From Spirochaetales bacterium (lineage in GTDB: Bacteria; Spirochaetota; Spirochaetia; JABEVK01): a DNA stretch of 39,137 nt. Below are positions 92-9,293 of this stretch, piece by piece. The notes beneath the pieces are model-generated. The model was not told the origin of the DNA, ran no database searches, and saw nothing but the letters and a program-made list of their open reading frames with translations. The position numbers were made by a program, and so were the translations under genes. Numbering within the stretch: position 1 is the stretch's first letter; each line of letters starts with the position of its first letter. Location of the stretch: NCBI GenBank assembly GCA_947478845.1, contig CANJXC010000019.1:1-39137 (forward strand), in the 5' to 3' direction.

Positions 92-550
92 TCAAAAAAG
101 CGGAAGTAGCCCGTCGGCGAAAAGCGGAAGTTTGAAATCGGCGTTGACATGGCCGAAGTCATAGTTGCGGATTTCCATGAAGAGCACCACGCCCAAAATG
201 GCGCAGTTTGCAACAATCAGCGGCAGGTAGATTCCCAAGCTCATGTAGAGAGCAGGACTCACACGCTCGATGATCATCTCAAGGGCCTGAACTACCGCCG
301 CCACAATGATGATATATACGAACAAATCGAGGTAAATCATGTTGAACGGGATGAGCACGTAGTTAAGGATGGGCCAACTGATGGCCGAGCTCAGCACCAG
401 AACTACGATGACCGCAATGCCTAAGCCGTTGGAGGAACCAATGTCCTTAGAGATCGCGATGAACGAGCAGGTTCCCAAGAAATTGGAAAGAAGAATGTTC
501 GACGTGAAGATTGACGCGAACAGCAGGGTAATAGGATCAACGTAACTCAT
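92..550 (-). CDS. NqrE-like subunit, C-terminally truncated (second copy)
   Basis: This is a 152-residue homologue of NqrE, a membrane subunit of Na+-translocating NADH:quinone reductase. The complete copy at 5202-5795 has 197 residues. The two proteins match well up to the NYDF motif (about residue 132). The present one then ends in an unrelated 20-residue tail, so the last membrane helix or helices are lost. The two cysteines that help hold the [2Fe-2S] cluster between NqrD and NqrE in known structures are kept (LGTCSF, C28; VANCAI, C116). The ATG overlaps the nqrD-like stop (ATGA), as in the complete operon. No nqrF follows. It is either a non-functional remnant or, less likely, a short variant. 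The truncation is seen in the sequence; loss of function is inferred. Confidence 0.8.
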   Translation of the reverse strand: MSYVDPITLLFASIFTSNILLSNFLGTCSFIAISKDIGSSNGLGIAVIVVLVLSSAISWPILNYVLIPFNMIYLDLFVYIIIVAAVVQALEMIIERVSPALYMSLGIYLPLIVANCAILGVVLFMEIRNYDFGHVNADFKLPLFADGLLPLF

Positions 551-1206
551 GCCTCACCTCCAGCGGTAGCAGGCTTAGGCGCCTTGGCTGCCGCTTCAAT
601 TTTGAGAGCGCGGGTCTTGAACACCCAGAGAATGATCGCCAGCAAGAAGAAGGCGCTAGGCGCCATGATGGCGATCGTCCAGTTGTTGCCTGACGAGAGG
701 TATTCAGGGGGGAAGACAGGAATATCGAGGATGGTTCCGAAGGCCAAAGGTTCTCGGATCAGAGCCAATAGACCCAACACCAACATGTAGCCCAAGCCAC
801 TGGTAAATCCATCCCACCACGAGATTAAGGGCGGATTCGCAGGCGCGAAGGTCTCGGTGCGTCCCATAACAATACAGTTGGTAATGATCAAACCAACATA
901 AGGCCCTAGCGAGCGCGCAACAGCAGGCACAAAGGCATTCAAAATCAGCTGAAGCAAGACGACGTAGAAGGTGATGGCCAAAACCTGAAAAATCATACGC
1001 ACTCTTCGGGCAATCAGATGCCGTATCCACGAGAGCGTGTAGTTGGCGAACGCCGTTACCAGCGACACTCCAACGGTCATGATCAGCGTATTGGTCAGCT
1101 TGTTCGTAACAGCGAGGGTCGAACAAATGCCCAATACCTGTACCAGAACCGGGTTATTGAGATTGAGATTCTCGCGTGTAACCTGCTTGAAAGTGGGTGT
1201 GCTCAC
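547..1206 (-). CDS. nqrD: NqrD-like subunit (second copy)
   Basis: A 219-residue NqrD of full family length with about six hydrophobic segments. LGICSTLAVTN (C28) and GLIITNC (C111) carry the conserved cysteines that face NqrE and bind the inter-subunit iron-sulfur cluster in characterised Nqr. The C-terminal basic, alanine-rich tail is longer than in the copy at 5792-6418. By eye the two copies share well over half of their residues, so this is an old duplication or an acquired paralogue, not a recent copy. The start is GTG, directly abutting the nqrC-like stop. The frame is intact although the neighbours on both ends of this cluster are broken, so it may still be expressed. Confidence 0.88.
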   Translation of the reverse strand: MSTPTFKQVTRENLNLNNPVLVQVLGICSTLAVTNKLTNTLIMTVGVSLVTAFANYTLSWIRHLIARRVRMIFQVLAITFYVVLLQLILNAFVPAVARSLGPYVGLIITNCIVMGRTETFAPANPPLISWWDGFTSGLGYMLVLGLLALIREPLAFGTILDIPVFPPEYLSSGNNWTIAIMAPSAFFLLAIILWVFKTRALKIEAAAKAPKPATAGGEA

Positions 1207-2019
1207 TTAACTGCCTCCCTTTTGGGCGACGAAGGCCTTTAACAGTACCAGAGCCCGTTGATTGATGGTGTCTTTGATGGCAGCACTTGTGATGGTTGCC
1301 CCCGAGATGGCGTCAAAACCATTAGGAGCCGGCGTGCCGGGATGGTTGAAAACCAGCCCCACGTTCGAAGCAGGTTTGATCTTGTCGAACTGTGCGGTAA
1401 AGCCCGGCTCCTCGATGCGGCCTCCCAAGCCAGGAGTTTCCACGTTAAACAAGACCCGCATACCCGAAATCTCGGAGAGATCCGCATTAGATCCAACTGC
1501 AAGCGACACGTTGCCCCAGAGGCCAGGTCCCGTGAAGTCGCCACCAAAGCGTTTTTGTCCGTCAGCCTCGGTAACATAGAAGAATGCAGGAATGTTGCCA
1601 GTGTAACTGTTGTCCTGAAGGGCCTTGCTCACCACGTCGTCCATGGTCATTTTGGCTTCCGCGAGTGCCGCACGGTCACTGTCGGAGGGAAACAGGTGCA
1701 AGAGCGTCGGGTCTTTGGCTATGGCATCATAGTCAATCGTGTCGTAGACAACGATCAGCTTGCCCGCGCTATCTTTCGCCAACTTTCCAATGGTGTACTT
1801 GTCGAGCTTTTTGTATTCCTCGCGGGCCTTTTCCATGTTTTTCGCGTCGGCAGGTAGTCCCATCGAAGCGAGAGTCTTGATGACGTGCTGGTCGAGCCAG
1901 TAGGCGTCGGCAATGGGCTTAGTGCCCACATAAGCCAAAGTCAACGGAAACACCAGAACAACAGTCATGAAGAACGTGAAACTGATGGTAAAAATATGGC
2001 CGTCTTTGTTGATTTTCAT
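1207..2019 (-). CDS. nqrC: NqrC-like subunit (second copy)
   Basis: A 270-residue NqrC with one N-terminal membrane anchor (about residues 10-32) and a periplasmic FMN-binding domain. NqrC carries a covalently bound FMN in the Na+-translocating NADH:quinone reductase. The attachment motif SGATITS is at residues 239-245, with T244 the likely flavinylated threonine. It is about 43 residues longer than the second NqrC at 6415-7098, mainly from extra sequence in the middle of the domain, and the proteins are clearly diverged. It overlaps the nqrB fragment by 4 bp, as in a normal nqrBC junction. No flavin transferase (ApbE) gene is visible in the window. Confidence 0.88.
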   Translation of the reverse strand: MKINKDGHIFTISFTFFMTVVLVFPLTLAYVGTKPIADAYWLDQHVIKTLASMGLPADAKNMEKAREEYKKLDKYTIGKLAKDSAGKLIVVYDTIDYDAIAKDPTLLHLFPSDSDRAALAEAKMTMDDVVSKALQDNSYTGNIPAFFYVTEADGQKRFGGDFTGPGLWGNVSLAVGSNADLSEISGMRVLFNVETPGLGGRIEEPGFTAQFDKIKPASNVGLVFNHPGTPAPNGFDAISGATITSAAIKDTINQRALVLLKAFVAQKGGS

Positions 2020-2171
2020 TCCGCACCCCCTTCGGCGGTCTTGGCCTGGGCTGTGGCAAGCTTTGCGGGCCCCGCCTTGGCAGAAACTTTCTTCTTGTTC
2101 GCTGGCATCAGCTCATCTAGCAACGAAGCAAAGGTGTTGGCAGTCAGGATGGCGAAGCTCACACCTTCCGC
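2016..2171 (-). pseudogene. nqrB 3' fragment
   Basis: Only the last 50 or so codons of an nqrB gene remain. They encode AEGVSFAILTANTFASLLDE followed by a lysine- and alanine-rich tail, the same end as the complete NqrB at 7095-8360. Homology starts abruptly at about 2171. Upstream codons in this frame (to 2216) are unrelated and read antisense to the neighbouring fragment. The block 2136-2171 is identical, base for base, to 7191-7226, ending exactly at the breakpoint. That is far more similar than the rest of the two clusters. I read this as a deletion or recombination scar. Confidence 0.85.
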
Positions 2172-2186
2172 CTGCTGGCCCCAAGA

Positions 2187-2594
2187 ATGCTGTCTCTGAA
2201 AGGGGTTGTATCCCAAACAGACCCCGGACCGTTTGCTTCCATGACAACCCCGATGGAGTTCTACCGAACCCTTCTCAGGCTCCTCGCCACGGTTCCGCCA
2301 AGCTCCGCTTCACTCAAAGGAGTGCACAGACACGCCACCCTCGAAGCTCGCTTGTGGCTGGGTTCCAAGGTGAAGATTGGTTCCGGAGCCCGAGTGGGTC
2401 CCGATTCAATTCTCGCGCCAGGAGTCACCATCGGAAAGGGTGCCCAAGTCAGATCTACAATAATTCTCACAAAGGAGGTCATTGGAGCCGCTGTGGAGTT
2501 TGAGGGAAAGATCATTGTGGGAAATATGATCCTTGACCCCAACAGCGGCAGTGGACTTGCCATCGGTGAAAAGCAAATCCTACGCGTTCCTTGA
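2187..2594 (+). pseudogene. C-terminal fragment of a sugar nucleotidyltransferase (hexapeptide beta-helix)
   Basis: The readable part, from about MTTPMEFYRTLL onward, matches the end of NDP-sugar pyrophosphorylases such as mannose-1-phosphate guanylyltransferase. It has a degenerate GTP-x-EF linker, then left-handed beta-helix repeats of hexapeptide type (WLGSKVKIGSGARVG, ILAPGVTIGKGAQV and similar). The catalytic Rossmann-like domain that should precede it, about 250 residues with a GG-x-GTRL motif, is absent. Its place is taken by the nqrB scrap on the other strand. Two gene ends therefore meet with both 5' parts missing, which suggests an inversion or deletion junction, or an assembly chimera. 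Confidence 0.7.
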
Positions 2595-2652: not shown

Positions 2653-3900
2653 ATGTCTTCCATCGATATTGCCAAGATGGACCTGCTTTCGGTCGCGATC
2701 ATCGTAGTAATTGGCCTCGTAGGCAGTGTCATCGCCAAAAAGATCAAGATTCCCGACATAGTGCTGTTTTTACTTTTGGGCATTTCCATAGGCCCGGCGG
2801 CCCTAAACCTGCTCAATGTTCCCGCCGACTCCACCATGAATCAACTGATCCTTACCATTGGTGCGTGCTTCCTTCTGTTTGACGGCGGTTCCACGTTGCG
2901 TTTCGCGGTGCTCAAAGAGATCTGGATAACGCTACTCGTCATCGCCACCATCGGCGTGTTGGTCACGGGAGCAGTGATGGCAGCCTTTGGTGTTTGGCTG
3001 GGTATCCCCGTCATGACGGCCATCCTTCTTGGAGCTGTTACCGCTTCGACTGACCCCGCAACTTTGGTGCCAATTTTTAAGCAGGTACCTATTAAAGACC
3101 GCGTGGCCCAAACCGTTATGAGCGAGTCAGCTCTCAACGACGCCATGGGAGCTATCGCCACCTTTGCGGTGGTAGGGGTCGTCCTTGGTGCTCAGAGCGG
3201 TGGCGAGAGCTTCAATATCCTTACTGCACTGGGTGACCTCGGCTGGGAGGCTGGGATAGGTCTGGCTGTGGGGGCTTTGGTAGGGTATGTGGCTATCGTC
3301 CTTGTAGGTCACAAAAAGCTTGCCGTGTTCCAAGATTTTGAGTCGTTTGTGGTCCTAATGTCGCTGATTGCGGCCTACCTTGGTGCCGACGCCCTTCACG
3401 CCTCAGGCTTCATGGCCGTATTCACCCTAGGCGTGATGTTCGGTAACAAGGATAGTTTTGGACTACCGCTACCCCACGTTAACCAAGAAAACTTCGAGCG
3501 CGACTTAGGCAACATCACGCTCTTGATGCGCACCTTTATATTTATTTTGCTGGGCAGTCAAGTCAGCTTCTCGCTATTGGCTCTCTACTGGTGGCAGGGA
3601 TTGGTTCTCCTCGTGGTCTTTATGTTCGTCGCCCGGCCTGCCGCAGTCTTCCTCTGCGCCGGACCCGACCGCAACGCTAAGTGGACATTGAAGGAACTCA
3701 TATTTATGAGTTGGACCAGAGAAACTGGTGTCATTCCAGCAGCTCTAGTTGGTATTTTGGTGGGCATGAAGGTCCCAGGAATGGACGTTGTAGGGTCGAT
3801 TACCTTCATTTTCATCTTGGGCACCATCCTTATCCAGGCCCCAACCACCGCTCCGCTAGCCAAGAAGCTGGGCTTACTCTTGGAGCCACATCAGAAATAG
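2653..3900 (+). CDS. CPA1-family Na+(K+)/H+ antiporter
   Basis: A 415-residue polytopic membrane protein with 11-12 hydrophobic segments and no large soluble C-terminal domain. It exchanges monovalent cations for protons across the cytoplasmic membrane. The CPA1 signature is present: a TDPA unwound-helix motif (about residue 136), then an ESALND motif (about residue 158) holding the ion-binding acidic residue. The start is ATG with a good AAGGAG ribosome binding site. It stands alone between the nqr remnant and the nqr operon, convergent with nqrF. With Nqr pumping Na+ outward, an antiporter here fits a sodium-linked energy economy, but that link is inferred from position. Whether Na+ or K+ is the substrate cannot be read from sequence. 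Confidence 0.88.
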   Translation: MSSIDIAKMDLLSVAIIVVIGLVGSVIAKKIKIPDIVLFLLLGISIGPAALNLLNVPADSTMNQLILTIGACFLLFDGGSTLRFAVLKEIWITLLVIATIGVLVTGAVMAAFGVWLGIPVMTAILLGAVTASTDPATLVPIFKQVPIKDRVAQTVMSESALNDAMGAIATFAVVGVVLGAQSGGESFNILTALGDLGWEAGIGLAVGALVGYVAIVLVGHKKLAVFQDFESFVVLMSLIAAYLGADALHASGFMAVFTLGVMFGNKDSFGLPLPHVNQENFERDLGNITLLMRTFIFILLGSQVSFSLLALYWWQGLVLLVVFMFVARPAAVFLCAGPDRNAKWTLKELIFMSWTRETGVIPAALVGILVGMKVPGMDVVGSITFIFILGTILIQAPTTAPLAKKLGLLLEPHQK

Positions 3901-3917: not shown

Positions 3918-3948
3918 AAAAAAGGCCACCCTATAGGGTGGCCTTTTT
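3918..3948. terminator. Bidirectional rho-independent terminator
   Basis: Perfect stem GGCCACCC (3924-3931) and GGGTGGCC (3936-3943) with a TATA loop, flanked by A6 on the left and T5 on the right. It works in both directions and lies between the convergent antiporter (+) and nqrF (-) genes. Confidence 0.95.
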
Positions 3949-4046: not shown

Positions 4047-5186
4047 TTAAGCGAACTTGTCGAAGTAGATCCTTTCTTCTGGCATCTTGTTCTTCTTCAT
4101 CACTACCATACACGCATCGAGCATACCAGGGCTACCGCACAGGTACCCCTCCTTCTCCTCGGCGAGAGGAATTTTGGTCTGCATGTAGTCGTCTAGAACA
4201 ACGGTGATAAGACCAACCGGCCCTTTCCAGTCTTCATCGGGCCCGGGCTCGGAGAGAGCAGGGACAAAGTGAAAGTTCGGGTAATTGGCGTCGAGTTCCC
4301 ACAGCCAGTCGAGGTAAAACATGTCTTTCGTAGTGCGGGCACCAAAAAAGTACCAGATAGGCCGGTCGTTGAAGGTACCATTGGCAATTCTCTCATTGAA
4401 GATCGACTTCATAGGGGCCATTCCCGAACCACCGGCCACACAAATCATAGTCGCGGAATTGTCGTGCACGTAGAAGTCGCCCACGGGAGCTACCACGTTG
4501 ATTTTTTGTCCTACCTTGAGAAAAGAGTGGACATAGGTAGTAACCACGCCCCCTGGTACCAGGCGAATCAAAAACTCCAGTGTTTCCTTCTGTTGGGGGT
4601 GGCTGCTGAATGAATAGGCTCGGGCTGTGGGCTCCTTCATATCACCGTATGACGGCACCTCGAACTGGCCGTAGTTACCCGCAACGTAGTGCAAGTCGGT
4701 GCCCGCAGGCATCCGCACCGTGACTTCCTTGATGTCGTAGGTCAGAGGGACTATTCTCTCTACAATACAGTCGAGTTTCTTGATGTTGAACAACTCTTCG
4801 GGAATGTGGAGCTTAAGGTCTGTTTTGACCTTAACTTGGCACGAAAGGCGCACGTTGTCCAATTGTTCTTTTTCGGTTAGGTAAGGGATCTCCGTGGGCA
4901 GGTGCGGGCCTACATCGCTGATAACTTGGCACTTGCACGCTCCACAACTGCCACGCCCTCCGCAGGCTGAGGGAATGAAGATTCCCTCGGCAGCTAGTGT
5001 ACTCAAAAGCTTGCTGCCACCATTCACCTTGAGCACCCTCTTGCCCTCATTGATGTCAATGGTAACTTCACCATAGTTGTTGACAATTTTGTCTGTGAAA
5101 GCGATGAGCAGGCCTAGCACGGCGGTGAAAACTGCTACGATGAGCGCCGCCACAACGGCGCTAGTCAGAATAAAACCGATATCCAT
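4047..5186 (-). CDS. nqrF: Na+-translocating NADH:quinone reductase subunit F
   Basis: A 379-residue NqrF, the electron-input subunit that takes hydride from NADH. It has an N-terminal membrane helix (about 5-30), a plant-type [2Fe-2S] domain with C75, C81, C84 and C116, and a ferredoxin-reductase-like FAD domain (RAYS, 189-192). The NADH domain shows AGGSGMAPM (251-259) and a late CGSPGM motif. It is the last gene of the operon nqrBCDEF, 15 bp after nqrE, with a GAGGAG ribosome binding site. It is slightly shorter than the roughly 408-residue proteobacterial protein. No second nqrF accompanies the partial cluster at the left edge. Confidence 0.95.
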   Translation of the reverse strand: MDIGFILTSAVVAALIVAVFTAVLGLLIAFTDKIVNNYGEVTIDINEGKRVLKVNGGSKLLSTLAAEGIFIPSACGGRGSCGACKCQVISDVGPHLPTEIPYLTEKEQLDNVRLSCQVKVKTDLKLHIPEELFNIKKLDCIVERIVPLTYDIKEVTVRMPAGTDLHYVAGNYGQFEVPSYGDMKEPTARAYSFSSHPQQKETLEFLIRLVPGGVVTTYVHSFLKVGQKINVVAPVGDFYVHDNSATMICVAGGSGMAPMKSIFNERIANGTFNDRPIWYFFGARTTKDMFYLDWLWELDANYPNFHFVPALSEPGPDEDWKGPVGLITVVLDDYMQTKIPLAEEKEGYLCGSPGMLDACMVVMKKNKMPEERIYFDKFA

Positions 5187-5201: not shown

Positions 5202-5795
5202 TTACTGTACCCGGACCATGCCCGAAAAGCCCACGAAGGCCATGGCCATGAATCCGATGGTGATAAAGGTGATGCCTGGGCCCTGAAGCCCGGCGGGTAC
5301 GTTCGACTTTTCGTACCTTTTGCGCATGGCCGCGAGCATCATGATGGCCATCCACCAACCGAGTCCCGAACCAATGGCGAACGAGAGCGACTGCCAAAAG
5401 TCATAATGGCGGATTTGCATGAAAAGCACGGCGCCCATGATGGCGCAGTTGACAGTGATCAGGGGCAAGAAGATTCCTAGGGTAAGGTAGAGCGCTGGCG
5501 ACACACGCTCGATTACCATTTCGAGAACCTGAACCACAGCGGCAATCACAATTATGAACACAATAAACGACAAGTACTCTAGCCCGGTTGGAATCAAAAG
5601 GTATTCTAGCACCACCCAACTGAGGGCCACGGTGATGGCCAGCACCACAGTAACAGCGATACCCAAGCCATTTGAAGAGTTCATGTCCTTCGAGATCGCA
5701 ATAAAAGAGCACATGCCCAGAAAGTTAGCCAGAAGGATGTTTGAAGTGAAGATTGAAGCAAAAAGCAAGGTCAGCGGATCAATGACGGGGGTCAT
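5202..5795 (-). CDS. nqrE: Na+-translocating NADH:quinone reductase subunit E
   Basis: A 197-residue, full-length NqrE with six hydrophobic helices. LGMCSF (C29) and TVNCAI (C117) carry the cysteines that, with those of NqrD, bind the membrane [2Fe-2S] centre in known Nqr structures. Its ATG overlaps the nqrD stop by 4 bp. It serves as the intact reference for the truncated copy at 92-550. The RnfA/RnfE family is homologous, but the covalent-flavin NqrB/NqrC and the NqrF partners in the same operon identify this as Nqr. Confidence 0.95.
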   Translation of the reverse strand: MTPVIDPLTLLFASIFTSNILLANFLGMCSFIAISKDMNSSNGLGIAVTVVLAITVALSWVVLEYLLIPTGLEYLSFIVFIIVIAAVVQVLEMVIERVSPALYLTLGIFLPLITVNCAIMGAVLFMQIRHYDFWQSLSFAIGSGLGWWMAIMMLAAMRKRYEKSNVPAGLQGPGITFITIGFMAMAFVGFSGMVRVQ

Positions 5796-6418
5796 TTGTT
5801 GCCTCCTGTTTTTTTCATTTGCAGTGTCTTAGAAACCCAAATGACAATTGCCACCAAGAAGAAGGCACTGGGAGCCATGACCATAATAGTCCAATTGTTT
5901 CCGCCGGCAGTGAAGTCGAGCGGGAGCACAGGAATATTCATCAGCGTACCGAAAGCGAGCACTTCACGAAACACAGCCAAACCGACAAGAACGATCATGT
6001 AGCCAAAGCCCGAAGTCAGGCCATCCCAGAAACTGATCACTGGACGGTTAGCCTGCGCAAAAGCCTCTGCCCGGCCCATAATGATGCAATTAGTGATGAT
6101 GAGACCCACATACGGGCCAAGGTTTTTGCTCACCTCGGGGGCATAGGCCCTTAAAACGATGTCGACGATGATGGTATAAAAACTGATGACCAGTACCTGC
6201 ACGATCATCCGTACCTTGCGGGGAATCCATGCGTTCATCAGCGACAGGGTCCAACTCGAGAACGCGGTAACGAGGGCTACGCCTACGGTCATTATGAGCG
6301 TATTCGAAATCAGGTTTGTAACCGCAAGAGTCGAACAGATGCCCAAAATCTGAACCAGAATCGGGTTATTTGTGATGACGTTTTCTTTGAGGTTAGCGAG
6401 ATACTTATTTTGGCTCAT
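5792..6418 (-). CDS. nqrD: Na+-translocating NADH:quinone reductase subunit D
   Basis: A 208-residue membrane subunit with LGICSTLAVTN (C28) and GLIITNC (C111), the two conserved cysteines facing NqrE. It is of normal family length and overlaps both neighbours by 4 bp (nqrC upstream, nqrE downstream), indicating translational coupling. It is a paralogue of the NqrD at 547-1206, differing at many positions and in its shorter C-terminal tail. Confidence 0.95.
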   Translation of the reverse strand: MSQNKYLANLKENVITNNPILVQILGICSTLAVTNLISNTLIMTVGVALVTAFSSWTLSLMNAWIPRKVRMIVQVLVISFYTIIVDIVLRAYAPEVSKNLGPYVGLIITNCIIMGRAEAFAQANRPVISFWDGLTSGFGYMIVLVGLAVFREVLAFGTLMNIPVLPLDFTAGGNNWTIMVMAPSAFFLVAIVIWVSKTLQMKKTGGNK

Positions 6419-7098
6419 TGAACCCCTCCGGTCAATTGCTTCATTTGAGCCACCGCACTGTTAACGGTGGCCACAAAGCCCTTGGTGGTGATTGTGGCGC
6501 CGGTTACGCCATCGACAGTGTCGTTTTCTTTGTCCGAGTCGCCGGCACCGCTTCCGTTAACGAAGGCAAGAGCCCCCGAAGACGGAACTTGCTGGCCCAA
6601 AAACTGATTTAAGAACCAAGGTTCCGCAACGCGGGCGCCGAGGCCAGGGGTCTCAACGTGGGCAATTACCTGCACCCCGGTGAACTTGCTAATCAATCCG
6701 TCAAAACCGACTGCGAGTACAAGGTTGCCCCACAACCCTTGTCCGGTGAAGGCGCCAGCCCAGGTTGCAAGATCGCCGCTTTTGGAGCGGAAGTACAACG
6801 GGTCGTAGGGTCGCTTGAGTCGTTCGGCTTCACGCACCTCAGAGGTCGTTACGGTTACAAGTTTGTCGCCCTCAAGCCTGAATTTATCAAGGGCGTCGAA
6901 AGTGGCAATGACTGATTTGGCGTCGTTCTTATCCGCTGGAATGGCCATGGCCTGCAGAATAGACAAAGCAGAAGCTACCTGCTGGTTCTCCTTCACTTTG
7001 TCTTTGGTGAGCTCGTTTGCTACCGAAAGTGGAAGGACCAACAAAAAGGTCACACCAAGGCTGAACAGCACGGTGTAAAGTACGCTGTCTTTGTTCAT
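6415..7098 (-). CDS. nqrC: Na+-translocating NADH:quinone reductase subunit C
   Basis: A 227-residue NqrC with an N-terminal membrane anchor (about 6-26) and a periplasmic FMN domain. The flavin attachment motif TGATITT is at residues 199-205, with T204 the expected covalent site. The domain also shows the conserved TGQGLWG and HVETPGLGARV stretches. It overlaps nqrB and nqrD by 4 bp each. It is shorter than the second copy at 1207-2019. Confidence 0.94.
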   Translation of the reverse strand: MNKDSVLYTVLFSLGVTFLLVLPLSVANELTKDKVKENQQVASALSILQAMAIPADKNDAKSVIATFDALDKFRLEGDKLVTVTTSEVREAERLKRPYDPLYFRSKSGDLATWAGAFTGQGLWGNLVLAVGFDGLISKFTGVQVIAHVETPGLGARVAEPWFLNQFLGQQVPSSGALAFVNGSGAGDSDKENDTVDGVTGATITTKGFVATVNSAVAQMKQLTGGVQ

Positions 7099-8360
7099 GC
7101 TTGGGCCTCCTGAGCTGCCACAACCTTGCCGGCGGGAGCTTTTTTCTTTTTGTTCGCCGGCATCAGCTCATCGAGCAACGACGCAAAGGCGTTGGCAGTC
7201 AGGATGGCGAAGCTCACACCTTCCGCGAAACCGGAGAATACCCGGATGGTAATTGTCAGGCCACCAATAAGAAAGCCATAAATCCACTGGCTTACGTTTT
7301 TCTTGGGGGCCGACACAGGGTCGGTGGACATGAACACGGCCGCAAACAGGATAGATCCTACCATCATGAAACTGAGGACGTCCATGATCTTCACGCCTAA
7401 GTCGGTACCGAGACGATGTTCACGGAAGACCGGGAAGCGAGTGTCCATGAGGCCACTGAAGTAATAACCCACGGTGAAAACCAACGCACCCGCAACCGTA
7501 AGAAGCACGAGGCGCCAGTTGGCAGTTTTGGTCATCAGCAGGTAGATACCCGCTAGAATGATGAGGAAGATCGCTCCCTCACCCATAGAACCGACTCTCA
7601 GGCCGAAAAAGAGGGCAAGCGGATCATTGTTCTCTAGCTGGATGTTCCATCCGAAGAACGAAATCGTGTGATGCCAATTGTTTTCTTTGGCCAAGCCACG
7701 AAACACCTCGATAGGGGTCGCCATCGCCACAGAGTCGAGCTCGTTAATAGCGATGCGCGTTCCCTTAGTGAAGGGGAAGGCGTAGGCGACTGCCACATTG
7801 AAAGCGATTACGGCCACCACGGCTAGCGCCACCGAAATGATAACCGCCTGTGTTTTGGCCTCTTTTTTGGTGATGTACCAGAATAGGGCGCCAACCAGAG
7901 CGAGCATCACGACAGCTTCGAGGGCCGTGCTACCCTGAATCAGGCGGTTCATACCGCCACCGAAGCCGAAACCGCCGGGAATCATCCAGGTGGTTTGGAG
8001 CATCAGTGGGAAGGAAATGTAACAGAACGTTCGTCCTGTGATGGAGGGGTTGAACATGTTGCGGCCGAAACCGCCATAAACCTCTTTACCAAAGATCACT
8101 GCAAACAATATGCCTACACCGGCAGCCCAGAAAGGTACCGCGGGCGGGAGCGAAATAGCAAAAAGTCCACAAGTGACCAACACGGCTTCACTGACTTTCT
8201 TGTTCTTACCCTTTTCAAACACATACTCTGCAAGAATACCGAGCAAATAAATGAAGGCGGTCATGGCGATAACACGCCAACCGTACAGGTACACCGACCA
8301 TAGGAAAATCGGAACTAGAGAATAAACGACCCGACGCATCGGATCCTGTTTAATGAACAC
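7095..8360 (-). CDS. nqrB: Na+-translocating NADH:quinone reductase subunit B
   Basis: A 421-residue NqrB, the multi-helix core that carries covalent FMN and riboflavin and takes part in Na+ translocation. About ten hydrophobic helices are visible. The FMN attachment threonine is probably T145 in IQGSTALEA, which stands where other NqrB proteins have SGAT; the motif is slightly unusual. The start is GTG with a strong AAGGAGG ribosome binding site (8366-8372, minus strand) 5 nt away. It is the first gene of the operon. NqrA, normally immediately upstream, is missing here, so the complex needs an NqrA from elsewhere in the genome or works without it. Confidence 0.94.
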   Translation of the reverse strand: MFIKQDPMRRVVYSLVPIFLWSVYLYGWRVIAMTAFIYLLGILAEYVFEKGKNKKVSEAVLVTCGLFAISLPPAVPFWAAGVGILFAVIFGKEVYGGFGRNMFNPSITGRTFCYISFPLMLQTTWMIPGGFGFGGGMNRLIQGSTALEAVVMLALVGALFWYITKKEAKTQAVIISVALAVVAVIAFNVAVAYAFPFTKGTRIAINELDSVAMATPIEVFRGLAKENNWHHTISFFGWNIQLENNDPLALFFGLRVGSMGEGAIFLIILAGIYLLMTKTANWRLVLLTVAGALVFTVGYYFSGLMDTRFPVFREHRLGTDLGVKIMDVLSFMMVGSILFAAVFMSTDPVSAPKKNVSQWIYGFLIGGLTITIRVFSGFAEGVSFAILTANAFASLLDELMPANKKKKAPAGKVVAAQEAQA

Positions 8361-8555: not shown

Positions 8556-9293
8556 CTAGCCTACCGCGGGCTTCCACCGGTTTAAAAACTCAGCCCGGGA
8601 CAGGATGCGGGCGCCCATTTTAACTTTATAGGGCATGTAGGGATGGCCTAGGTTCCAGAAAGCCACCCCGAGGTCCTGAAGCCGGTACGCCAGGAGTACC
8701 ATTTGCAGCTTGCCAAAGTTGTTCCAGCGGCGTTCGGTTCGGTTGAAAAAGCCCGTGAGGCTGGTGTAGGTGGCACCACAAAAGTACCCCAGTTCGCCTG
8801 CCACCAATTGGGTCGTGGAGGTTTCTCGCAGTTCGGTGGCGACAAGCCTGAAGTCTTCGCTCTGCAGTTTGGAAAGTGTCAGCATTAACTCCAAATAAGG
8901 GGGGTGCAGCCAGGAAGGTACATGAAAAGCTGAAATTGCCTCGAGGACGGGGCCGACTTCGCTAGTGAGAGAAAACTTGAGGTCTGTCCCCGATATCAGG
9001 GATCTCGCATTGAGGTCTGTCCCCGATATCAGAGAACGCACCGATCGGTCGACGTGAAGCCGGTCCCAATCGAGCACCGCGTACGAATCTTGGAGTTCCG
9101 GCAGCAACAGAAACGGGGGCCCCGAATATTCGATGGCGGTGCTAATGAACCCGGCCCGTGCCAGCGCCACATAAAACTCAGCAGACCAGTCGTCGCTCCA
9201 GTAAAGTGTCCTTGCGGTGTCGGCTTCGGCCTTCTCAAGCCACAGAGGTTGAGCGAGGTCCTTTGCCGTTATGCGGAAAATGGGGGTCTCCAT
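8556..9293 (-). CDS. Aat-like (leucyl/phenylalanyl-tRNA-protein transferase family) protein with repeat insertion
   Basis: A 245-residue protein whose second half follows the Aat pattern: GELGYFCGATYTSLTGFF, then LQMVLLAYRLQDLGVAFWN, then KMGARILSRAEFL near the end. In Aat the last block is SLGA-x-I-x-RAEFL. Aat attaches Leu or Phe to N-terminal Arg/Lys of proteins destined for ClpS/ClpAP. The catalytic region around Aat's LIDCQ reads FWNLG here and the GESMFS segment is not kept, so classical activity is doubtful. Residues around 88-105 contain RSLISGTDLNA followed by RSLISGTDLKF, an in-frame tandem insertion of the dispersed GAGGTCTGTCCCC repeat. The insertion falls between an RSLRR-like and an F-x-V-like stretch of Aat. 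It follows the ABC permease by 12 bp, apparently in the same operon. Confidence 0.65.
   Translation of the reverse strand: METPIFRITAKDLAQPLWLEKAEADTARTLYWSDDWSAEFYVALARAGFISTAIEYSGPPFLLLPELQDSYAVLDWDRLHVDRSVRSLISGTDLNARSLISGTDLKFSLTSEVGPVLEAISAFHVPSWLHPPYLELMLTLSKLQSEDFRLVATELRETSTTQLVAGELGYFCGATYTSLTGFFNRTERRWNNFGKLQMVLLAYRLQDLGVAFWNLGHPYMPYKVKMGARILSRAEFLNRWKPAVG
8977..9042 (-). repeat. Tandem 33-bp unit carrying two copies of the dispersed 13-mer
   Basis: Two adjacent 33-bp units (8977-9009 and 9010-9042), each with GAGGTCTGTCCCCGATATC on the plus strand (cores at 8979-8991 and 9012-9024). They lie in frame inside the Aat-like gene and encode an 11-residue repeat. The GATATC extension is shared by these two copies only. 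Confidence 0.9.

Follow-up and report, generated by a model that had tools for sequence, protein, structure and literature searches.

The window analyzed here (39,137 nt) is the whole of contig 19 in an assembly of 22 contigs and 2.99 Mb that is 99.75% complete. Two nqr units lie adjacent to each other in identical orientation. On the side of unit 2 the order is NT1, X, nqrF2-E2-D2-C2-B2, and on the side of unit 1 it is NT2, exchanger, nqrF1-E1-D1-C1-B1. In unit 1 the genes for B, C, D, E and F are all present and complete on the minus strand, namely nqrF1 (4047-5186), nqrE1 (5202-5795), nqrD1 (5792-6418), nqrC1 (6415-7098) and nqrB1 (7095-8360), and reading their translations revealed the expected cofactor motifs. 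A Na+/H+ exchanger gene on the plus strand (2653-3900) separates both clusters, and the gap between it and nqrF1 contains a strong terminator-like hairpin (3919-3948). Outside the nqrB tail block described below, the DNA identity between the two clusters is 47-70%. Synonymous sites are mostly saturated when unit 1 is compared with unit 2; as this applies nearly everywhere, events can be dated only relative to each other. A short direct repeat (TTGAGGTCTGTCCCCGATATCAG) at 8976-9034, within a 245-aa ORF upstream of nqrB1, resembles an inserted repeat unit.

The start of the window carries, on the minus strand, the nqrB2 stub followed by nqrC2, nqrD2 and nqrE2. Both nqrC2 (1207-2019; 270 aa, with the FMN-attachment motif SGAT kept) and nqrD2 (547-1206; 219 aa) are complete. 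They were originally predicted to be intact and diverged from the other copies, in agreement with amino-acid identities between copy 2 and copy 1 of 30% for NqrC and 62% for NqrD, and we verified the open frames and the stop/start overlaps in unit 2. The loss of the end of nqrE2 that had been postulated was ruled out, because the missing part was found on contig 18. Only the first ~133 codons of nqrE2 lie in the window (150-550, minus strand), and the remaining codons are located at the end of contig 18 (approximately C18:54326-54520). Codons 134-152 of the ORF listed at 92-550 are the sequence of a mobile element, whose repeated end (TGTCAACGCCGATTTC...) is inserted in nqrE2 and occupies positions 1-149 on the minus strand up to the contig edge. 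A target-site duplication of 5 bp, GGCCA, is found at 150-154 on the same strand, with its second copy on contig 18 at the far side of the element, where GGCCAGTCTATC... follows the element; in the window ...TTCGGCCA precedes it. In-silico excision of the element together with one GGCCA restored an NqrE2 of 196 aa with 93% identity to its counterpart in the same-genus relative G002, a Spirochaetaceae MAG (JAHFSN01). Therefore, the apparent loss of the end reflects an insertion combined with an assembly break. Past the element, contig 18 continues with the rest of nqrE2, an intact nqrF2 (374 aa), X (158 aa), NT1 and an LplA-like gene.

The element ends are of the form TGTCA...TGACA, read TGTCAACGCCGA... 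and TGTCAGCACCGA..., and each runs for 147-149 bp to a contig edge. Contigs 8 and 20 both begin with an exact copy of positions 6-149 of the window; contigs 18, 2 and 1 end, and contig 11 begins, with the opposite end of the element. Over 144-149 bp of their ends the copies are 100% identical to each other, so the insertion was probably late. Together with the intact frames, this supports the earlier argument against old decay in unit 2, whose disruption looks recent. For other copies of the element, duplications of CTCAG or CTCAGC seem to pair the contig ends 1/20 and 2/8, which suggests that these contigs are joined in the genome. Based on its TG...CA ends, internal repeated motifs and short target duplication we regard the element as a candidate member of the IS21 type. 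Its interior is absent from the assembly, so this assignment is drawn from the ends. The only match to a model of IstB was partial and fell within a frame of 461 aa on contig 3 that is not adjacent to any element end, and a search of plasmids with the element end returned zero matches.

At the other end of unit 2, nqrB2 is reduced to a stub of its last 51 codons without a start of its own (about 2016-2171, minus strand), largely as predicted. The stub abuts NT2 (2172-2594, plus strand), the 3' remnant of a hexapeptide-repeat nucleotidyltransferase of which the 5' half is missing. The match to NT1, the complete nucleotidyltransferase on contig 18, reaches about 2163, and the match to nqrB1 reaches 2171; since the two overlap, the deletion junction (2164-2172) holds a few bases common to both (CCGC/TTCCGC). 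The original prediction had proposed to search the genome for the missing parts and had considered a complete second operon elsewhere, of which only half was found: the 3' part of nqrE and an intact nqrF2 are present on contig 18, and a second nqrB 5' part is absent from the assembly. The NqrB/RnfD family has three members in this genome, among which nqrB1 is the only complete nqrB. A complete second nqrB elsewhere was ruled out, as the two other family members (contigs 7 and 4) sit among Rnf-type genes. On contig 4 (L046:3899-6766) RnfC-, RnfD- and RnfA-like genes follow each other without B, G and E, and an Rnf-type cluster is also located on contig 7. Besides, contig 15 (1455-1769; L014) contains a weak match to the Rnf-Nqr membrane subunit with an internal stop.

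Within the stub, an 84-bp block (2088-2171, minus strand) is 94% (79/84) identical to 7143-7226 in nqrB1. It includes the 36 identical bases at 2136-2171 and 7191-7226 that had been noticed before, and these abut the breakpoint. In this tail 23 of 28 codons are identical, the highest value of all 28-codon windows when every pair of copies and relatives was scanned. Moreover, synonymous differences amount to 4/26 as opposed to a pooled 351/590 (59%) in C to F (P about 5e-6 per window). The match is therefore beyond chance and beyond protein conservation, and exchange between the clusters, as previously proposed, is supported for the nqrB tail; it is also visible in the 3' part of nqrF. Judged from these substitution patterns, the block is probably a remnant of gene conversion. 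Such a drop in synonymous differences relative to the flanking sequence is the expected mark of gene conversion between paralogues.

The comparison with relatives showed which unit is native. G002 and two members of the same family (G003 and G005) possess one operon each, nqrB-C-D-E-F-X, and it is of the unit 2 type. The proteins of unit 2 are 92% (NqrD2), 93% (NqrE2) and 87% (NqrF2) identical to those of G002, and the corresponding values for unit 1 are 62%, 71% and 73%. In the trees of C, D and E, unit 2 groups with G002, G003 and G005 at 100% bootstrap, and a clade of unit 1 and unit 2 was rejected for all three genes (AU p 2e-5, 2e-19 and 1e-3). As the single operon of the genus and family is of type 2, the broken unit 2 is the native one, and we regard its status as the genus-native Na+-NQR-type operon as settled. 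The original prediction, which took unit 2 for an incomplete second copy and unit 1 for the main one, thus has the roles reversed, and the trees of nqrC, nqrD and nqrE rule out that unit 1 is the native operon. Whether selection on unit 2 is relaxed was assessed with a relative-rate test, the result of which depended on the outgroup (p 0.0016 for G003 and 0.62 for G005). The operon shares no neighborhood synteny with G002-G005. In G001, G002 and G005 nqrB has a GGDEF/EAL gene as its neighbor; a search of this genome at E 1e-40 did not recover that gene, and synteny is accordingly no guide to the ancestral locus.

Unit 1, in turn, is of mixed derivation. The genes nqrC1, nqrD1 and nqrE1 fall outside the native clade, and NqrD1 has its highest identity (70%) to another family of the class, where the best value for NqrC1 is 43%; no close match that could indicate a donor of C1-D1-E1 was obtained among 395 genomes. 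In contrast, nqrB1 is nested in the native clade, from which its exclusion was rejected (p 0.003). For nqrF1 a placement outside the native clade was not rejected (p 0.19), and its affinity shifts along its length. Codons 1-105 encode 36 private residues versus one common only to NqrF2, as well as a one-residue insertion in common with another family. Codons 245-385 encode 19 residues common only to NqrF2 versus three private ones, and three common only to G002. About 105 codons at the 5' end of nqrF1 are hence of the outside type and about 135 at the 3' end are common with nqrF2. Taken together, the native-like nqrB1, the shifting nqrF1 and the outside position of C, D and E identify unit 1 as a mosaic.

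We propose, with a probability of roughly 65%, a history of tandem duplication, block replacement and gene conversion followed by recent inactivation of the native unit 2. An old tandem duplication of a nucleotidyltransferase-nqr unit would have occurred in this lineage, which fits the identity of 69% between NT1 and NT2 and of only 39-41% between either of them and same-genus homologues. The C-D-E-F5' part of unit 1 may then have been replaced by a block of another origin. Homologous recombination between the units could have led to conversion in the nqrB and nqrF 3' parts, and the 84-bp nqrB tail would be the leftover of one such exchange. Subsequently, a deletion over the unit boundary would have taken out the 5' region of nqrB2 along with the promoter presumed to lie there, the intervening DNA and the 5' half of NT2. 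The mobile element entered nqrE2 with its 5-bp target duplication, probably late in this history, and the assembly broke there. Unit 2 would thus have been inactivated by two separate events, a deletion and an insertion.

A serious rival, albeit an unlikely one, is a one-sided additive insertion, in which a foreign fragment, C1-D1-E1-F1-exchanger-NT2 tail, entered the native B-C2-D2-E2-F2-X operon at the 3' end of nqrB. One of its sides would have been joined through homologous crossover and the other through microhomology. The 84-bp nqrB tail would have been duplicated, and nqrB1 would be the native nqrB in a displaced position, having lost nothing by deletion. The gene order suits an insert between nqrB1 and nqrC2 with the nqrB tail as flanking direct repeat, and the nested position of nqrB1 in the native clade, the few-bp homology at the junction and the differing nqrB tips past the common block are all in line with it. 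However, nqrB1 is not nearer to its same-genus homologue (pN 0.187) than the genes of other family members are (0.19-0.20), unlike D2, E2 and F2, and this distance together with the native 3' end of nqrF1 weakens the insertion model, since such an end is unexpected in a purely foreign insert. The same holds for a nucleotidyltransferase tail that is 69% identical to NT1. An additive event would leave unchanged that unit 2 is native and that nqrE2 carries an insertion. That unit 2 is native, interrupted by the element and devoid of its own nqrB 5' part is therefore common to both leading models and can be considered settled.

With nqrB2 reduced to a stub and nqrE2 split, the B to F set of unit 2 is incomplete, and from its gene content unit 2 alone cannot form a complete pump. 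We consider it quite improbable that unit 2 is retained as a partial operon that still functions by supplying its C, D and F subunits to a complex with B1 and E1. The frames of C2, D2 and F2 are intact and their cofactor motifs are kept, but the disruptions look recent enough to account for this. Moreover, unit 2 lacks a B subunit, its E is truncated, its presumed promoter is deleted, and a terminator-like hairpin and genes on the opposite strand lie upstream. Least credible of all is a misassembly in which repeats gave rise to both the stub and the boundary between the clusters as chimeras: the contig ends in a repeat and the nqrB joint carries an 84-bp near-repeat, so that an assembly join is possible in principle, yet the junction lies 2.2 kb inside the contig and connects nqrB to the nucleotidyltransferase instead of one nqrB copy to the other, the two nqrB tails differ at 5/84 bases, and no further nqrB or nucleotidyltransferase copy is able to complete either half.

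Returning to the proposed duplication and replacement, a tentative reading of the gene set is that unit 1 may be a working chimeric pump, in which homologous recombination placed a foreign-lineage C-D-E-F5' block between a native nqrB and a native nqrF 3' part, the resulting hybrid having displaced the native operon. If true, the membrane core of NQR-type pumps would be exchangeable as a block. A single model for NqrA (PF05896) gave no hit in this genome and none over the Pfam cut-off in G002-G006, G052, G068 and G102. A 2014 study of nqr evolution described NqrA as highly variable and without catalytic function (PMC4014512), so divergence past this model is possible. The operons in this genome and eight relatives start at nqrB and usually end in the 158-aa gene X. 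This gene (~158 aa, no Pfam family; L043:6703-7176 on contig 18) lies 3' of nqrF and is absent from unit 1. It also follows nqrF in the genus, the family and another family with 52-79% identity.

In kind, the case is one of ordinary genome decay, and its recombination history is instructive. The general processes are already well known, and the intact operon, with its chimeric make-up, is of more interest. The separate events by which a native respiratory operon was inactivated beside a mosaic copy can still be told apart, and blocks of an NQR-type pump that may be exchangeable become visible. As a caution, what looks like gene loss at the edge of a contig may turn out to be an insertion. In the literature searched we found no paper that describes the disruption of an nqr operon by an insertion sequence. 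Both clusters share the gene order B-C-D-E-F and the family matches of the Na+-NQR (NqrBCDEF), and the paired cysteines of NqrD/E, the SGAT/TGAT motif of NqrC and the ferredoxin and FAD/NAD domains of NqrF are present; unit 2 differs by its missing nqrB 5' part and its split nqrE. The element resembles IS21-type insertion sequences in its short target-site duplication (GGCCA at nqrE2, CTCAG-type at other copies), but it is known from its ends, its transposase genes being absent from the assembly, and another kind of TGT...ACA element with a 5-bp duplication is conceivable. Finally, an intact copy beside a decaying one, a conversion tract and a boundary deletion are features of operon inactivation after takeover by a paralogue, and all of them are present at this locus. 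Here, however, the copy that stayed intact is mosaic, its middle block being of different derivation.
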